From the NCBI GenBank assembly GCA_003447785.1, contig DLYJ01000221.1, positions 1-7,392 on the forward strand: a DNA stretch of 7,392 bases, read 5' to 3'. How positions within the stretch are numbered: the stretch's first letter is position 1; the number at the start of each line of letters is the position of its first letter. The stretch comes from Treponema sp. (GTDB lineage Bacteria > Spirochaetota > Spirochaetia > Treponematales > Treponemataceae). A program made the position numbers and the translations under genes. The notes beneath the pieces are model-generated. The model was not told the DNA's origin. It searched no databases and worked only from the letters and a program-made list of their open reading frames with translations. Positions 1,377 to 7,392 of the stretch are shown here, piece by piece.

Positions 1377-2422
1377 AAACTAAAAAACTCTGTATTTTAA
1401 TTTTTGCTCTTTGTTTTGCCGCCGTAACCGGAGCCGGCTTTATCGTAAGTCAGCTTTATTTTCCTGTTTCTTCACACTCACATGCCGTTCAGGAAAAAGT
1501 GCAGATTCCCATGGGAACAGGTACGATTAAAGTTGCAAAACTCCTGAAGGAAAAGGGCCTCATCCGTTCGGAAAAGTTTTTTGTTCTTGCGGCCCGTGTA
1601 CCATTTTTTTATGGAAGGGCAAAACCATACGCAATAAAGTCAGGTATTTATAATATTGATTCATCCATGACTCAGGCTTCCATTCTTGAACTTCTGGATT
1701 CCGGAAAGCAGGAGTATCTGAAAGTTGTATTTCCTGAAGGCCTGACCCTTGGAAAAATCGCACTGATGCTTGAAGCAGAAGGTGTGTGCTCGGCCGCTGA
1801 TTTTAGGGAAGCCGCAACAAGCTACGAACTTTTGGAAAAATATCAGATTCCGGCAGACAGTCTGGAAGGTTATCTCTTCCCGGATACTTATTTCTTTAAT
1901 CCTTCAATGGACGCAAAGGCCGTTGTTTCCATGATGGCTGATAACTTTTTTGACCGCATTAAAACAATTCAGGGACTTTCAGAAAAGTCACCGTCAGAAC
2001 TCTATAACATTCTGATTATGGCGTCCATTGTTGAACGGGAATACCGGGTAGAAAGTGAAGCGCCTCTCATCGCAAGTGTTTTCTATAACCGTCTGGAAGA
2101 TAATGTGGGCTTTTATTCATGCGCAACAATTGAATATATAATTACCGAGATTCTGGGGCGTCCTCATCCGGATGTAATTACCTACGAAGATCTCCAGATT
2201 AATTCGCCGTACAATACTTACAAGTGGGCGGGTTTACCTCCATCTCCAATCAGTAACCCGGGACTTGTTGCCCTCAGTGCGGCCGCAAATCCTCCCAAAA
2301 CCGATTATTATTACTTTACTTTGACCAATGCCGAAAAAGGAACCCATGCCTTTACAAAATCTTTTGGTTCCCATATCAGGGCCGGAATGCAGTTAAAAAC
2401 AAAAAAGGCGGCGACTAAGTAG
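1373..2422 (+). CDS. mltG: Endolytic murein transglycosylase MltG (YceG-like)
   Basis: The 349-residue protein has a short basic N-terminus (MKTKK) and one hydrophobic segment at about residues 7-29, so it is a single-pass inner-membrane protein with a periplasmic body. In this family the enzyme cleaves nascent glycan strands and is thought to set their final length. Diagnostic features are LEGYLFPDTY (164-173), ASIVERE (217-223) with the presumed catalytic Glu at 221, the VFYNRL segment (236-241), and the C-terminal NSPYNTY (277-283), GLPPSPISNPG (287-297) and HAF (325-327) motifs. Length is typical of the family. The start overlaps the upstream stop as ATGA and has only a weak ribosome site, suggesting coupled translation. 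Its TAG shares one base with the dnaG GTG. The catalytic region looks intact. Confidence 0.95.
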   Translation: MKTKKLCILIFALCFAAVTGAGFIVSQLYFPVSSHSHAVQEKVQIPMGTGTIKVAKLLKEKGLIRSEKFFVLAARVPFFYGRAKPYAIKSGIYNIDSSMTQASILELLDSGKQEYLKVVFPEGLTLGKIALMLEAEGVCSAADFREAATSYELLEKYQIPADSLEGYLFPDTYFFNPSMDAKAVVSMMADNFFDRIKTIQGLSEKSPSELYNILIMASIVEREYRVESEAPLIASVFYNRLEDNVGFYSCATIEYIITEILGRPHPDVITYEDLQINSPYNTYKWAGLPPSPISNPGLVALSAAANPPKTDYYYFTLTNAEKGTHAFTKSFGSHIRAGMQLKTKKAATK

Positions 2423-4227
2423 TGGCGGGATTTATCAGTCAGGAATCAATTGAAGCCGTAAAAAATGCGGCGGATATTGTTTCGGTTGTAAGTGAATATG
2501 TAAAACTCGACAAAAGGGGCTCGGATTTCTGGGGCTGCTGTCCTTTCCACGGCGAAAAGACGGCTTCCTTCCATGTGGTTCCCGACAGAAATGCATATTA
2601 CTGCTTTGGCTGCCATGCAGGCGGTTCATCTGCAATCAAGTTCATTCAGGATATTGAAAAGGTAAGTTTTCCTGAAGCAGTAGATATTCTTGCCAGAAAA
2701 TACGGAATTACACTTACTTACTCGGACAAGGGGGACAGTCAGGTAAAATTTGATGATTCAAAAAAGAAAACAATTGAATTATACGACCGGGTTTCTACAA
2801 CATTTCATTTCTTTCTGACACAGCACCCGTCAGGAAAAAAGGCCCTTGAATACATCAAAGGCCGTGGAATTTCTGACGAAACCATTGAAAAATTCCGAAT
2901 CGGATACTCGCCTGAAGACAGGTTCTGGCTGCACAGGTTCTTAAAGGAAAAAAACTTCAGCGATGACTTTCTTGCAAAGTCAGGTCTTTTCAGCCAGAAC
3001 TACCCGAACGTTTCGTTCTTTTCTGACCGCCTGATGTTCCCGATTTTCAACAGGCACGGGGAGTGTGTGGCAATGGGCGGACGCATTCTCCACCAGCAGG
3101 GCGAAAATGACAGAAAATATTTAAATTCCCGCGAACTTCCGCACTACAGCAAAAAGAACACCCTTTATGCATTTAATTTTGCCAGGGAAGAGATTCGCCT
3201 TAAAAAGACTGCAATCATCTGTGAAGGCTATATGGATTGTATTGCCTATCATCAGAGCGGAATCAAAAACGCGGTTGCCACCTGCGGAACCGCCCTTACG
3301 GAAGACCATATCAAACTGATTTCCCAGACTACATCCGGCGGAACCGTACTTTTGTCTTTTGACAGCGACGGAGCAGGCCAGGAAGCCACCAGAAAATCCA
3401 TCCTGCTTTGCCGCAGGGCGGGGCTTACGGTAAAAATCGTTCGTCTTCGCGGAGGGAAAGACCCGGCAGAAATTATGGTTAATTATGGGGCGGCAACCTT
3501 GACGGAGGATGTCAACTGTGCTATAATAGATAGTGATTACCTGTTTGAAAATCTGACGCATAAATACCCGATTGACACACCGGAAGGTAAAACTAAGGTA
3601 GCCCTTGAGTTTTTTCCCTATATAGATGCATTGCAGAATAACATTCAGAAGGAATCAAGCCTGGATTTGCTTTGCCAGAAGCTCAACATATCCAGACAGG
3701 CTGTAGAACGAGATTTCAACAACCGCCAGCAAGCCCAGAAACAGACTGTTGTTACTCAGAAAGTTGAACCGGTGCAGGATTTTTCTAAACTTAAGAAAAA
3801 TGCGGAATTAAAGGTGTTACTTGCAGTTATTTCTGATACACAGCAATTTGATATTGTAAGGCGCGAACTGAACGAAGATGAATTCGAGACAGCCGAAGCA
3901 AAGGAATTATTCGTTGTTTTGGAAGAGTGTGCTCAAAAAGGCAACCTTTCTTTCAGCAATGTATGCGAACACTGCGGTAGCGATGAACTGGTCCGATTTA
4001 TTACAGAAAGCGTAATGTCCGGAGAATATGCAACTAATACTGCTAAAATCGTAAGTGACGGCATACAGCTTATTAAACAAAAAGGTCTGGAAAGACAGCG
4101 GGATTATATACTTAGTAGAATTAGAGAACTTGGTACCCCTGAGCAGCCTGAAAAGAAAGAAGAACTCCAGCAGCTTTTGCACGAAATAATGAATATCAAC
4201 AATTTAATTAACTCTAAAAAGGAATAG
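2422..4227 (+). CDS. dnaG: DNA primase DnaG
   Basis: This 601-residue primase makes the RNA primers for chromosome replication at the fork with DnaB helicase. An N-terminal CHC2 zinc finger is visible, with ligands C40, H43, C61 and C64. The RNA polymerase core follows with DRLMFPI (202-208), GGR (219-221) and KYLNS (232-236). The Toprim domain has CEGYMD with E268 and FDSDGAG with D314 and D316, then KDPAE (346-350). A C-terminal helical region (about 455-600) corresponds to the DnaB-interacting domain. Length is near the E. coli protein (581 aa). The GTG start shares one base with the mltG stop. The nearest AAGG (2405-2408) is 13 bases upstream, so coupled translation is likely. A promoter-like sequence is embedded at codons 360-369, just after the Toprim motifs. 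Confidence 0.98.
   Translation: MAGFISQESIEAVKNAADIVSVVSEYVKLDKRGSDFWGCCPFHGEKTASFHVVPDRNAYYCFGCHAGGSSAIKFIQDIEKVSFPEAVDILARKYGITLTYSDKGDSQVKFDDSKKKTIELYDRVSTTFHFFLTQHPSGKKALEYIKGRGISDETIEKFRIGYSPEDRFWLHRFLKEKNFSDDFLAKSGLFSQNYPNVSFFSDRLMFPIFNRHGECVAMGGRILHQQGENDRKYLNSRELPHYSKKNTLYAFNFAREEIRLKKTAIICEGYMDCIAYHQSGIKNAVATCGTALTEDHIKLISQTTSGGTVLLSFDSDGAGQEATRKSILLCRRAGLTVKIVRLRGGKDPAEIMVNYGAATLTEDVNCAIIDSDYLFENLTHKYPIDTPEGKTKVALEFFPYIDALQNNIQKESSLDLLCQKLNISRQAVERDFNNRQQAQKQTVVTQKVEPVQDFSKLKKNAELKVLLAVISDTQQFDIVRRELNEDEFETAEAKELFVVLEECAQKGNLSFSNVCEHCGSDELVRFITESVMSGEYATNTAKIVSDGIQLIKQKGLERQRDYILSRIRELGTPEQPEKKEELQQLLHEIMNINNLINSKKE
3499..3527 (+). promoter_or_regulatory. Candidate internal promoter for rpoD, within dnaG
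   Basis: TTGACG (3499-3504) is followed by a 17-base spacer and a perfect TATAAT (3522-3527), matching the sigma-70 consensus at 11 of 12 positions. TG at 3519-3520, one base before the -10, makes it an extended -10 promoter. The predicted start is near 3534, about 700 bases before rpoD and inside dnaG. The -10 falls on two consecutive ATA isoleucine codons. E. coli also has an rpoD promoter inside dnaG, so a similar role is plausible. The match is seen directly; activity is inferred. Confidence 0.6.
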
Positions 4228-4233
4228 CAGAGT

Positions 4234-6003
4234 ATGGATCAGGAACTGGATCCCCTAGTTACAAAACTTCTTGAATATGCTAAAGAAAAACAAATCGTGT
4301 CATGGGATGAAATCAATGAGATTCTCGGACAGGATTTTGTAAATTCCCCGAAAATGGAAAGTGTACTTCAACTTTTAACCCAGAACAACATTCAGGTTAT
4401 GGAAGAAGATACCCTTGATGATGAAGACGAAGCCGACGATGATGACGAAGATCTCGAAGGCGATGAAGACGCTGAAGCCGCTGATGACGACGGTGCCCAT
4501 ATCGTAAACAGCGATAAAGATTCAAATGTTGACGACCCTATCAGACTTTACCTCCGGGAAATCGGTAAGGAAAAGCTTCTTACTGCAGAAGAGGAAGTTA
4601 AGTATTCTAAGGAAATGGAAGAGGGCGAAAACATCATTAAAAACGTAATCAAAGAGTCGGGAATGATGATTCCTGAATTCTACGCTGTTGCCCTTAAAGC
4701 CTTTACACGCATTGACCCTCATGAACCGGGAAAGGCACGTAAAGAAATCAATGAAGAAATGGCAGAAAAACGCCGCTTAAAGGGCTGCTACTCAGAATGG
4801 ATTAAACCGGTCCTTCCTGAAATGAAGCAGTACATGGCCCTTAAAAAGCAGTTGTTTGATGCAGAACAGTCCCCTGAAATTTTCCAGAATCCTCAGCTTG
4901 TTGAACTCCGCGGTAAAATCCTTCCGGGATTGAAGACCGTAGAAATTCAGTCTGAAGAAATCGAAAAATTCAGTGATAAATTTGTAAACGCTACAGAAAA
5001 AATTGAAGAATGCTTCCACAACCAGGAAAAGAAGATGAAGGAACTGCGTATTTCAAATACAGGTGAACTGCGCAGTCTTGGACGCAAACTTGCAATTCAC
5101 TCTGAAGCCGCAAAACTCGAAAAGGAACTGGGGCTTTCAGCAGACGAAATCCGCGATGTTTATACTCAGATTCAGAAAATCGATAGACGCCTGCGCCGCA
5201 TGGAATATGATTTTGAAAATAACGTAGAAGAAATTCTTTCCATGGCAAAAGAAATCGACCGCGGACGCCGCATGATGGAAAAGGCAAAGAACAAGCTCAT
5301 CAATGCAAACCTTCGTCTTGTTGTTTCCATCGCTAAAAAATACACAAACCGCGGACTTCAGTTCTTTGACCTTGTACAGGAAGGAAATATCGGTCTTATC
5401 AAGGCTGTTGAAAAATTTGAATACCGCAAGGGATACAAATTTTCTACATATGCAACATGGTGGATCCGCCAGGCAATCACACGTTCAATTTCTGACCAGG
5501 CACGCACAATCCGCGTTCCTGTACACATGATTGAACAGATTAACAAGGTTGTTCGCGAAAGCCGTCAGCTTATGCAGAAACTGGGCCGCGAACCAAAAGA
5601 TGAAGAAATCGCACAGCAGCTGGGATGGCCTGTTGCCCGGGTTAAACAGGTTAAAAACGTTGCCCGCGAACCAATCTCTCTTGAAACACCAATCGGTGAA
5701 GAAGAAGACAGTCAGCTGGGAGACTTTATCGAAGATAAGGAAGTTGAAAATCCAGCAAATCAGACTGCATACACACTTCTCCAGGAACAGCTTCGCGAAG
5801 TTCTTGGCACTCTGCCGCCCCGTGAACAGGAAGTTCTCAAGATGCGCTTTGGTCTTGATGACGGTTACAGTCTTACTCTTGAGGAAGTTGGTCTTTACTT
5901 CAACGTTACCCGCGAACGTATCCGTCAGATTGAAGCAAAGGCTCTTCGAAGGCTCCGACACCCGCGCCGTGCTTCAGGGCTGCGGGATTACATCGAAACG
6001 TAA
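4234..6003 (+). CDS. rpoD: Primary RNA polymerase sigma factor (sigma-70, RpoD)
   Basis: This 589-residue housekeeping sigma factor directs RNA polymerase to most promoters. Domains in order are region 1.1 (about 1-58); a very acidic linker (about 61-86); region 1.2 (about 99-132, with [11 protein letters not shown]); a roughly 200-residue non-conserved region typical of primary sigmas; region 2 (about 344-437, with [12 protein letters not shown] and [14 protein letters not shown]); region 3 (about 438-510); and region 4 (about 511-589). The -35-binding helix [14 protein letters not shown] spans 558-571. The -10 and -35 recognition residues match E. coli by eye, so TTGACA/TATAAT promoters are expected in this genome. 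A good AAAAAGGAA ribosome site (4216-4224) lies nine bases before the ATG, and the gap after dnaG is six bases. The gene can be transcribed from the operon promoter and probably from the site inside dnaG. A terminator follows. Confidence 0.99.
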
Positions 6004-6021: not shown

Positions 6022-6057
6022 AAAACCGGTCAGTTTAAGTTTTAACCGACCGGTTTT
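6022..6057 (+). terminator. Rho-independent terminator after rpoD
   Basis: A 10-bp perfect stem, AAAACCGGTC (6022-6031) with GACCGGTTTT (6048-6057), is extended inward by GTT/AAC (6033-6035 with 6044-6046) after one mismatch. The 3' arm ends in TTTT. Because the 5' arm begins with AAAA, the hairpin could also stop transcription from the opposite strand. It lies 18 bases after the rpoD stop and closes the five-gene operon. Confidence 0.85.
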
Positions 6058-6058
6058 A

Positions 6059-6087
6059 TAGACATAACAAAACAAATTTTATATAAT
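6059..6087 (+). promoter_or_regulatory. Promoter of the zinc-ribbon protein gene
   Basis: TAGACA (6059-6064), a 17-base spacer and TATAAT (6082-6087) match the sigma-70 consensus at 11 of 12 positions. The predicted start is near 6094, giving a leader of about 67 bases. The -35 box begins two bases after the rpoD terminator hairpin, so termination and re-initiation are packed back to back. Confidence 0.8.
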
Positions 6088-6148
6088 ATGGGCACTTTTT
6101 GCAGTCTTTTTTGATATGCAAAAGCCGCTTATTCCGATACATTTACCC

Positions 6149-6152
6149 GAGG
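6149..6152 (+). promoter_or_regulatory. Ribosome binding site deciding the zinc-ribbon gene start
   Basis: GAGG ends eight bases before ATG 6161. An in-frame ATG at 6116 has no purine-rich site in front of it and would add 15 residues unlike the rest of the protein, so 6161 is preferred. ATG 6167 is a less well spaced alternative. Confidence 0.7.
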
Positions 6153-6160
6153 TTTTTGAC

Positions 6161-7030
6161 ATGGTAATGACAGAAGTTTTTGACAAACTTAAAGCTCTTC
6201 AGGATGTACTTGCAGAAAAATACACTCTTGAAGCTCAAATCGAAGATTCACCAAAACAGCTTTCTTCTTCTGAAGAACTCCTTGTTCGTCTCAGAAAAGA
6301 ATTTTTGGAAACAAACACCAAATATGAAGAAGTAAAAGCAGAAGTTGGCCAGTTCCAGCTTGAATTGGAAGAAGCTGAAAAATCACGAGAGTCGGGCGAA
6401 AAGGGTATGGATAATATCTCTACTCACCGCGAATACGAAGCTCTTCAGAAACAGATTGACGACGCATCTGCAAAAGAAAGTGAAGTTCGCAAAAGTCTTC
6501 AGAAAAAAGAAAAGGAACTTGAAGAACTTAACGAAAAACTTCGCATGACAGAAGAAACAATCAAGATGCAGGAACAGGACCTTGAAGCAAACAAGGCTAA
6601 CCTGGACAAACAGATTTCTTCATACAAAGATGAACTCAAGGAACTTGAAAAAAAGGAAAAGGAAATAACACCTGGTCTGGATACAGAAATCGTTTACAAA
6701 TTTCAGCGCATTATTCAGCGTAACCGCGAAGGTATCGTAGCCGTTCGTAACGGTGTTTGTTCAGGCTGTAACATGATTCTTCCTGCTCAGTTTGCAAACG
6801 AAGTTCACGAAGGCGAAAGCATTCTCTTCTGCCCGTACTGTTCACGTATTTTGTATCATGAAGATGTAGATGAATCAGAAGCAGAAGATTATTCATCACT
6901 GGAAGAAACAGGTACTCTGGCTGACTTTGATGATGAATTTGCTGATGAAACCGAAGAATTGGCAGAAGGCGAAGAAAGAGAAGATTCTTCTGATGATGAA
7001 GACAAATCAATCGCTTTTGACGATCAATAA
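6161..7030 (+). CDS. Coiled-coil C4-type zinc-ribbon protein (COG1579-like)
   Basis: This 289-residue protein has no signal peptide or membrane segment. Residues about 5-170 are almost entirely charged heptad-like helix rich in Glu, Lys and Leu, predicting a long antiparallel coiled coil. A zinc ribbon follows with CSGC (C200, C203) and CPYC (C224, C227), about 20 residues apart, the layout of the zf-RING_7/COG1579 family. The last 55 residues (about 235-289) form a strongly acidic, probably disordered tail. Family members include chlamydial CT398/CdsZ, reported to bind sigma-54 and secretion components; whether this applies here is unknown. The start at 6161 is chosen for its GAGG site. It has its own promoter, separate from rpoD, and is followed closely by rnpB. 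A role in transcription or as an assembly scaffold is possible but inferred. Confidence 0.88.
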   Translation: MVMTEVFDKLKALQDVLAEKYTLEAQIEDSPKQLSSSEELLVRLRKEFLETNTKYEEVKAEVGQFQLELEEAEKSRESGEKGMDNISTHREYEALQKQIDDASAKESEVRKSLQKKEKELEELNEKLRMTEETIKMQEQDLEANKANLDKQISSYKDELKELEKKEKEITPGLDTEIVYKFQRIIQRNREGIVAVRNGVCSGCNMILPAQFANEVHEGESILFCPYCSRILYHEDVDESEAEDYSSLEETGTLADFDDEFADETEELAEGEEREDSSDDEDKSIAFDDQ

Positions 7031-7050: not shown

Positions 7051-7056
7051 TATAAT
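7051..7056 (+). promoter_or_regulatory. Possible -10 element of rnpB
   Basis: A perfect TATAAT lies 20 bases after the preceding stop codon and just before the RNase P RNA core. No convincing -35 is found at 16-18 bases (TAATTA at 7028-7033 for 17). TTGACG at 7017-7022 is 28 bases away, too far. The hexamer could instead be part of the mature RNA: ATAATC (7052-7057) can pair with GGTTAT (7380-7385). Confidence 0.4.
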
Positions 7057-7392
7057 CGTGCCGGTAATCGTTGATGATAACTTTTACCGGTGAGGAAAGT
7101 CCGGGCTCCACCGGAAAGAATGCTGGGTAATAACCAGGCAGAAAATGGCAGTTGTTTATTTATAAACATAACCCTTTTTCTGACAGACAGTGCCACAGAA
7201 AACAAACCGCCCGCAAGGGTAAGGGTGCAAAGGCGGGGTAAGAGCCCACCGGGGTTCTGGCGACAGAATCCGCAAGGCAAACCTCATTCGGAGCAAAGTC
7301 AAGCAGCAGTATGGTTTTCCGGGCCTTATACTGCGGGTAGACTGCTAAAGGCTTTTGGCAACAAAAGTTTTGGATAGATGGTTATGCGTTTG
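7057..7392 (+). ncRNA. rnpB: RNase P RNA (bacterial type A), 3' end cut by window
   Basis: This is the catalytic RNA of RNase P, which removes 5' leaders from precursor tRNAs. Conserved blocks appear in the right order: GAGGAAAGTCCGG (7092-7104, the 5' strand of helix P4), a P9-like hairpin CTGG/CCAG (7123-7126 with 7134-7137) bearing a GGTAA-type loop, ACAGAAAACAAACCGCC (7195-7211), GGTAAGAGCCCACCG (7237-7251), GGAGCAAAGTCAA, the L15 GGT (7336-7338) that pairs with the tRNA 3' CCA, and TAGATG (7375-7380). An AT-rich hairpin, TGTTTAT/ATAAACA (7153-7168), sits where P12 is expected. The P4 3' strand and P1 3' strand lie beyond the window. The 5' boundary is uncertain by about 15 bases. A reading frame across this region (7090-7377) is an accident of the RNA sequence. 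Confidence 0.95.

Follow-up and report, generated by a model that had tools for sequence, protein, structure and literature searches.

A probable sigma-70-type promoter conserved at the DNA level within dnaG of Treponema and related spirochaetes and predicted to transcribe rpoD

In Escherichia coli, dnaG and rpoD belong to the rpsU-dnaG-rpoD operon, in which the rpoD promoters Phs, Pa and Pb lie within dnaG. The heat-shock-type site that we take to be Phs begins around codon 516 of this dnaG and 394 nt upstream of rpoD. In Mycobacterium tuberculosis, recX reportedly has a promoter internal to recA, a likeness to the locus described here in that the downstream gene is transcribed from inside the coding sequence of its neighbour. 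A passage of PMC3415461 describes several promoters for E. coli rpoD, read by sigma-70, sigma-32 and sigma-24, and a table row of PMC5493296 assigns an RpoS-holoenzyme peak to E. coli dnaG. For Staphylococcus epidermidis, part of PMC2824700 places transcription starts at 177 and 78 bp upstream of sigA, and another part counts seven known promoters for the macromolecular synthesis operon of Bacillus subtilis. The dnaG-rpoD operon of Listeria is given as sigma-H dependent in an excerpt of PMC4754846. Neither an earlier description of a dnaG-internal site in Treponema nor transcription start-site maps for Treponema were found in the open-licence literature.

In the present study, we analysed a stretch of 7,392 nt from a Treponema sp., called the window here (G000:C246; host assembly of 2.03 Mb, 75% complete), which carries the same gene pair, dnaG-rpoD, as E. 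coli. The closest relatives of its DnaG are those of Treponema sp. MAGs (96% identity). Several other ORFs are also present in the window, and the features that concern us are these:

1-82: tRNA-Tyr
2422-4227, plus strand: dnaG, the coding sequence that hosts the promoter site (ORF; relatives found by tblastn)
3499-3504, plus strand: predicted -35 hexamer TTGACG, which is dnaG codons TTG ACG (TTG in 107/107 genus, 34/34 family and 29/30 order rows)
3505-3521, plus strand: predicted 17-nt spacer, with the extended -10 TG at 3519-3520 (same length in 93/93 non-redundant genus rows)
3522-3527, plus strand: predicted -10 hexamer TATAAT, from codons GCT ATA ATA (constraint ranks of codons 3520 and 3523)
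3533-3536, plus strand: predicted transcription start region, from the usual distance to a -10
4234-6003, plus strand: rpoD, the predicted target gene (ORF; matches to RpoD/SigA of solved structure; alignment with E. coli RpoD)
6022-6057, plus strand: predicted terminator hairpin 3' of rpoD (fold of -17.1 kcal/mol)
6116-7030: a further ORF beyond rpoD
7052-7385: class A RNase P RNA

The element at 3499-3527 is very probably a housekeeping sigma-70 promoter inside dnaG, conserved as DNA across an order of spirochaetes and predicted to transcribe rpoD. It presumably lies immediately 3' of the Toprim-encoding part of dnaG, and it aligns with residues 358-367 of E. coli DnaG, a stretch in which no such match is present in E. 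coli. The site assumed to be Phs is at about codon 516, so the two positions are not homologous; because the place in dnaG differs, we regard the Treponema site as a functional parallel to Phs and not as the same element. The spacing between dnaG and rpoD is also different, being 194 bp in E. coli and 6 nt in the window. S. epidermidis and B. subtilis resemble this locus in having promoters for the primary sigma gene in addition to the one at the operon head, but theirs lie near sigA, one of them under sigma-B control, whereas the site in Treponema is about 700 nt upstream and of sigma-70 type. Compared with intragenic promoters generally, it is order-wide, its codon-level constraint can be measured, and its loss coincides with lost adjacency.

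The initial annotation had read TTGACG-N17-TATAAT with a TGn extension on the coding strand of dnaG, about 700 nt upstream of rpoD, and these letters are correct one by one, with rpoD starting at 4234. The site scores 11/12 against the sigma-70 consensus hexamers with a spacer of 17. It was also said to surpass the candidate at the head of the operon, which it does, since the best match there is TAGATT-N17-TATAAT at 148 (9/12), and ATA is indeed a minority Ile codon in the dnaG of the window (7/42, including both codons of the site). The window contains 14 promoter-like matches, two of them at 11/12 (the dnaG site and 6059-6087), against 12.4 (sd 3.5) in shuffled sequences; as this is no excess, the single-sequence match in dnaG proves little alone. 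The other match at 11/12, TAGACA-N17-TATAAT at 6059-6087, comes right after the hairpin behind rpoD and heads the next ORF (start 6116 or 6161). The terminator scan, which covered loops of up to 8 only, did not list the hairpin at 6022-6057, and it listed no terminator-like site on the plus strand between 3527 and rpoD.

In the host genome as a whole, there are 20 occurrences of TTGACN-N17-TATANT and 8 of its reversed form, and 18 of the 20 are outside any ORF of at least 80 aa. Of the other two, one (L246) is close to the 3' end of an ORF, which leaves the dnaG site as the only one deep within a gene. Since the pattern is mainly intergenic, it appears to act as a promoter signature in this host, to which the dnaG site is an exception of location.

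For the comparison with relatives, dnaG was aligned by codons, and each column was scored by the frequency of the same codon among rows with the same amino acid, relative to the codon usage of each gene itself. The genus gave 110 rows, reduced to 93 non-redundant rows, and in all 93 neither the position of the site nor its spacer length differs (at least 5/6 and at least 4/6 letters). In these rows, the four most constrained of the 588 scored dnaG columns are TTG 3499, GCT 3520, ATA 3523 and codon 3526, and the spacer codons rank merely 62-354. Of the 15 most constrained ten-codon windows among 592, 13 overlap the site and two begin just downstream. We then compared three non-overlapping sets, namely the genus (107 rows), the other genera of the family (34) and the other families of the order (30), with about 580 codons ranked. 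TTG 3499 ranks 1, 1 and 1 for synonymous constraint in genus, family and order, codon 3520 ranks 2, 2 and 3, ATA 3523 ranks 3, 4 and 2, and codon 3526 ranks 5, 266 and 12. There was no signal in 19 rows of spirochaetes at the class and phylum level, in which codons 3499, 3520 and 3523 rank 244, 82 and 83. The proposal that the hexamers would be conserved beyond neighbouring synonymous sites was therefore borne out in its main part, because hexamer codons are the most constrained of dnaG in all three sets, and it failed for the second ATA, which is not conserved.

The same result was obtained with 200 protein-preserving synonymous codon shuffles as the null. At least 9 of the 12 promoter letters are present at the aligned place in 111/111 genus rows (17-nt spacer), 32/34 family rows and 27/30 order rows, and the shuffles reach at most 35, 16 and 5 rows, respectively (genus mean 24); these shuffles ignore the kinship of rows, which the scoring of each column against the rest of the gene takes into account. 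The site is the best sense-strand match of the whole dnaG, ties included, in 111/111, 31/34 and 27/30 rows of genus, family and order. Furthermore, the third base of codon 3520 is T in 171/175 rows even though nine amino acids are encoded there, and the Thr codon of the -35 is ACC in 0/108 Thr rows where 22 were expected. In an alignment-free scan, TTGAC-N16-GCTATANTNGA was found in 142/200 genus genomes and its reversed control in 11; dnaG hits contain 26 of the first 27 matches listed, as judged by eye, and several later ones are elsewhere.

The relatives also define which letters of the site are held. Most of them have TTA at the second ATA codon, so that the usual -10 of the genus is TATATT with position 5 varying, and the TATAAT of the window is unusual. 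The two successive ATA codons had been taken as a hint of selection on DNA, and this stands for the first ATA, which is strongly constrained, and falls for the second. The TG extension is common in the genus (T in 63% and G in 96% of rows), but the codon that supplies the T is without synonymous excess (rank 354 of 588), and we dropped the extension as a selected part. An intact TATA is missing in 12/111 genus rows and 10/34 family rows. Compensation between the hexamers was considered and set aside, as TTGACA is present in 11/22 rows that lack TATA against 28/123 other rows (genus and family, P 0.016), and within each group alone P is 0.08, which is suggestive only because the rows are related. 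In the order-level families, the -10 is mostly TATAA followed by a variable base, with position 6 mostly not T (A in 63%), and the -35 is TTGCAA or TTGAAA. We observed in these rows (e.g. L174-L182) that TATAAn is followed by T, while T is rare at position 6 itself, and that the A at position 5 is kept (87%) despite a change among Asn, Thr and Ser, which is not explained by E. coli promoter rules.

The second line of evidence is the linkage of the site to its predicted target. Almost every locus retrieved across the phylum has rpoD behind dnaG in the same orientation, and this near-universal order makes the exceptions informative. The test comprised 241 dnaG loci of the order, from regions retrieved for a subset of the genomes that had given a dnaG hit, after removal of identical dnaG and of dnaG below 1200 nt, with class- and phylum-level loci excluded. 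The site is kept in 230 of the 232 loci in which rpoD begins no more than 117 nt away. None of the three loci without rpoD downstream has kept it (L312, L318 and L323); in these, dnaG is followed by an opposing gene (L318, L323) or by an ORF read as truA-like (L312). Likewise, it is absent from both loci with a dnaG-rpoD spacer of 405-421 nt (L311 and L259, of one genus, g12), and L157, a congener that has no such spacer, keeps it. The genus labels (g12, g66 and g71) place the five losses in three lineages, and in g66 the linked congener L309 retains TTG...TAT. The one locus with a gap of 202 nt (L329) keeps the site, so distance alone is not the rule. Three of the 241 loci end before rpoD and are outside these counts, of which L027 and L071 kept the site and L322 lost it. 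Base composition does not explain the losses, because TTG is found in 48/49 and TATA in 47/49 of the loci that have an adjacent rpoD and a GC3 of 0.6 or more. Since the site is kept with adjacent rpoD and has decayed in all five loci in which rpoD is gone or more than 400 nt away, it is likely to be a promoter of rpoD itself; thus, the target named by the initial annotation gained support from a separate test (230/232 adjacent, 0/3 gone, 0/2 behind 405-421 nt).

These results bear on the other explanations. The site could be a functionless look-alike produced by the protein constraint on Leu-Thr ... Ala-Ile-Leu together with codon bias, in keeping with promoter-like matches in the single sequence being as common as in shuffles. 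Nevertheless, the protein-preserving codon shuffles fall short of the observed counts, the third base of codon 3520 is constant over nine amino acids, and the site is retained in GC-rich genes. In view of the constraint ranks and the codon shuffles, we consider this explanation exceedingly improbable and, for practical purposes, apparently refuted; on the aligned genes, the promoter-like conservation of the site is not chance. A real rpoD promoter read by an alternative sigma factor of the heat-shock or stationary-phase type, as in E. coli, is highly improbable, although rpoD promoters of E. coli are used by sigma-70, sigma-32 and sigma-24 according to a part of PMC3415461. The hexamers here are of the sigma-70 type, their pattern forms a signature found mainly between genes in the host genome, and the RpoD of the window has recognition segments like those of E. 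coli.

The constraint might instead serve dnaG, as an RNA element, as a translational pause at rare codons, or as a promoter for a C-terminal DnaG fragment. Codons just downstream are also constrained (TAT 3538, rank 7 of 588), and transcripts from the site would include a 3' fragment of dnaG, which would fit such a role. Against it, the site decays in loci without rpoD although dnaG persists, and two hexamers are constrained while the spacer is not. Moreover, there is no common start-codon column within about 130 nt of the predicted start: the first such column is 3670, with TTG in 57% of genus rows, and the window has GTA at 3856. An internal DnaG start was dropped for this reason. The constraint follows rpoD and not dnaG, which argues against a dnaG fragment or an RNA element, and we judge a role in dnaG very unlikely. 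Two other observations concern this region. The Tyr codon TAT at 3538-3540, just past the predicted start, is strongly favoured over TAC (ranks 7 and 8 in genus and family), possibly through an effect of the initially transcribed sequence or a GATA...TATC dyad. A CCG-GAG-GC stretch at 3694-3699 of the window is highly conserved at synonymous sites within the genus (ranks 5 and 20 for its columns) and resembles an internal ribosome-binding motif, with no suitable start codon after it.

Returning to the site as a promoter of rpoD, the initial annotation had held that it would be of housekeeping type and that the encoded sigma factor has the recognition helices of E. coli RpoD. The hexamers agree with the former, and the alignment agrees with the latter, as segments of 19 and 15 residues are identical between the two RpoD proteins. 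We take these segments to be regions 2.4 and 4.2. Because they match E. coli RpoD, sigma-70 autoregulation is expected, and the promoter is likely to be autoregulatory via RpoD. In the mechanism that we propose, RpoD holoenzyme would bind inside the primase gene, and the mRNA would start near 3533-3536, with the 3' part of dnaG as a leader of its first 700 nt or so. The transcript would then run through rpoD and stop at the hairpin at 6022-6057. In this way, the supply of rpoD would be uncoupled from dnaG, and RpoD would sustain its own gene. We infer initiation at the site, RpoD as the sigma factor, positive autoregulation and the share of the site in rpoD expression. As a separate observation, RpoD seems to begin directly behind dnaG and to carry a long Lys/Ala-rich N-terminal extension in the genus members L061, L064, L065, L069, L070, L073, L075-L080, L082, L204, L205 and L208; this extension is missing from the RpoD of the window.

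Prediction of intragenic promoters is easy and functional proof is hard; here the comparative evidence is strong and includes lineages where the constraint was lifted by the presumed target gene being displaced. The site also gives a testable rule for the supply of the primary sigma factor in treponemes, the majority of which are not easily manipulated, and it is a clean case in which the constraint of regulatory DNA on an essential protein can be measured. The promoter may even dictate the protein, in that the Ile of the DnaG linker after Toprim would be present for the ATA of the promoter and not for the primase, an idea that we advance tentatively and hold at somewhat below an even chance. 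The residue of the ATA codon is Ile in 162/175 genus, family and order rows, in 1/8 loci that lost the site, and Ile codons are present in 6/19 class- and phylum-level rows. If true, an essential enzyme has been shaped by the regulatory DNA of its neighbour for the age of the order and was released once the neighbour left.

Two loci are without the site despite an adjacent rpoD, namely L165 (from G214, a reduced genome of 1.14 Mb; -10 lost) and L313 (G339), and no convincing substitute promoter was found in either. A replacement site at dnaG offset 688 in L165 and L168 was rejected, since the -10 letters in L165 come from a TAT-AAA motif shared by many relatives. Displaced rpoD is on other contigs in G379 and G362, G387 gave a weaker sigma match only, and G373 gave no rpoD match at the cut-off used. 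Upstream of the displaced genes, TTGACA-N18-TATATT is found in G362 and TGTACA-N16-TATACT in G379. The match in front of rpoD in G362 (L368, 11/12) alone stands out, being equalled in 5 of 300 mononucleotide shuffles, and that of L365 (9/12) was equalled in 93 of 300. Corresponding positions in the spacers of L311 and L259 carry TTGACA-N17-TAATAT and TTGACG-N17-TAATAT; the TTGAC block and the TAATAT block of one spacer align with those of the other, and further shared blocks are present in the spacer too. The best matches in these spacers (10/12 in L311 and 9/12 in L259) were equalled in 81 and 247 of 300 mononucleotide shuffles. As most of these candidates are no better than composition shuffles, they were not used as proof, and promoter replacement near displaced rpoD is no more than plausible. 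No known RNA family was found in the 405-421-nt spacer of g12 at Rfam gathering scores. An undescribed RNA or leader may be present in this spacer, which has long blocks conserved between the two genomes and strong predicted folding.
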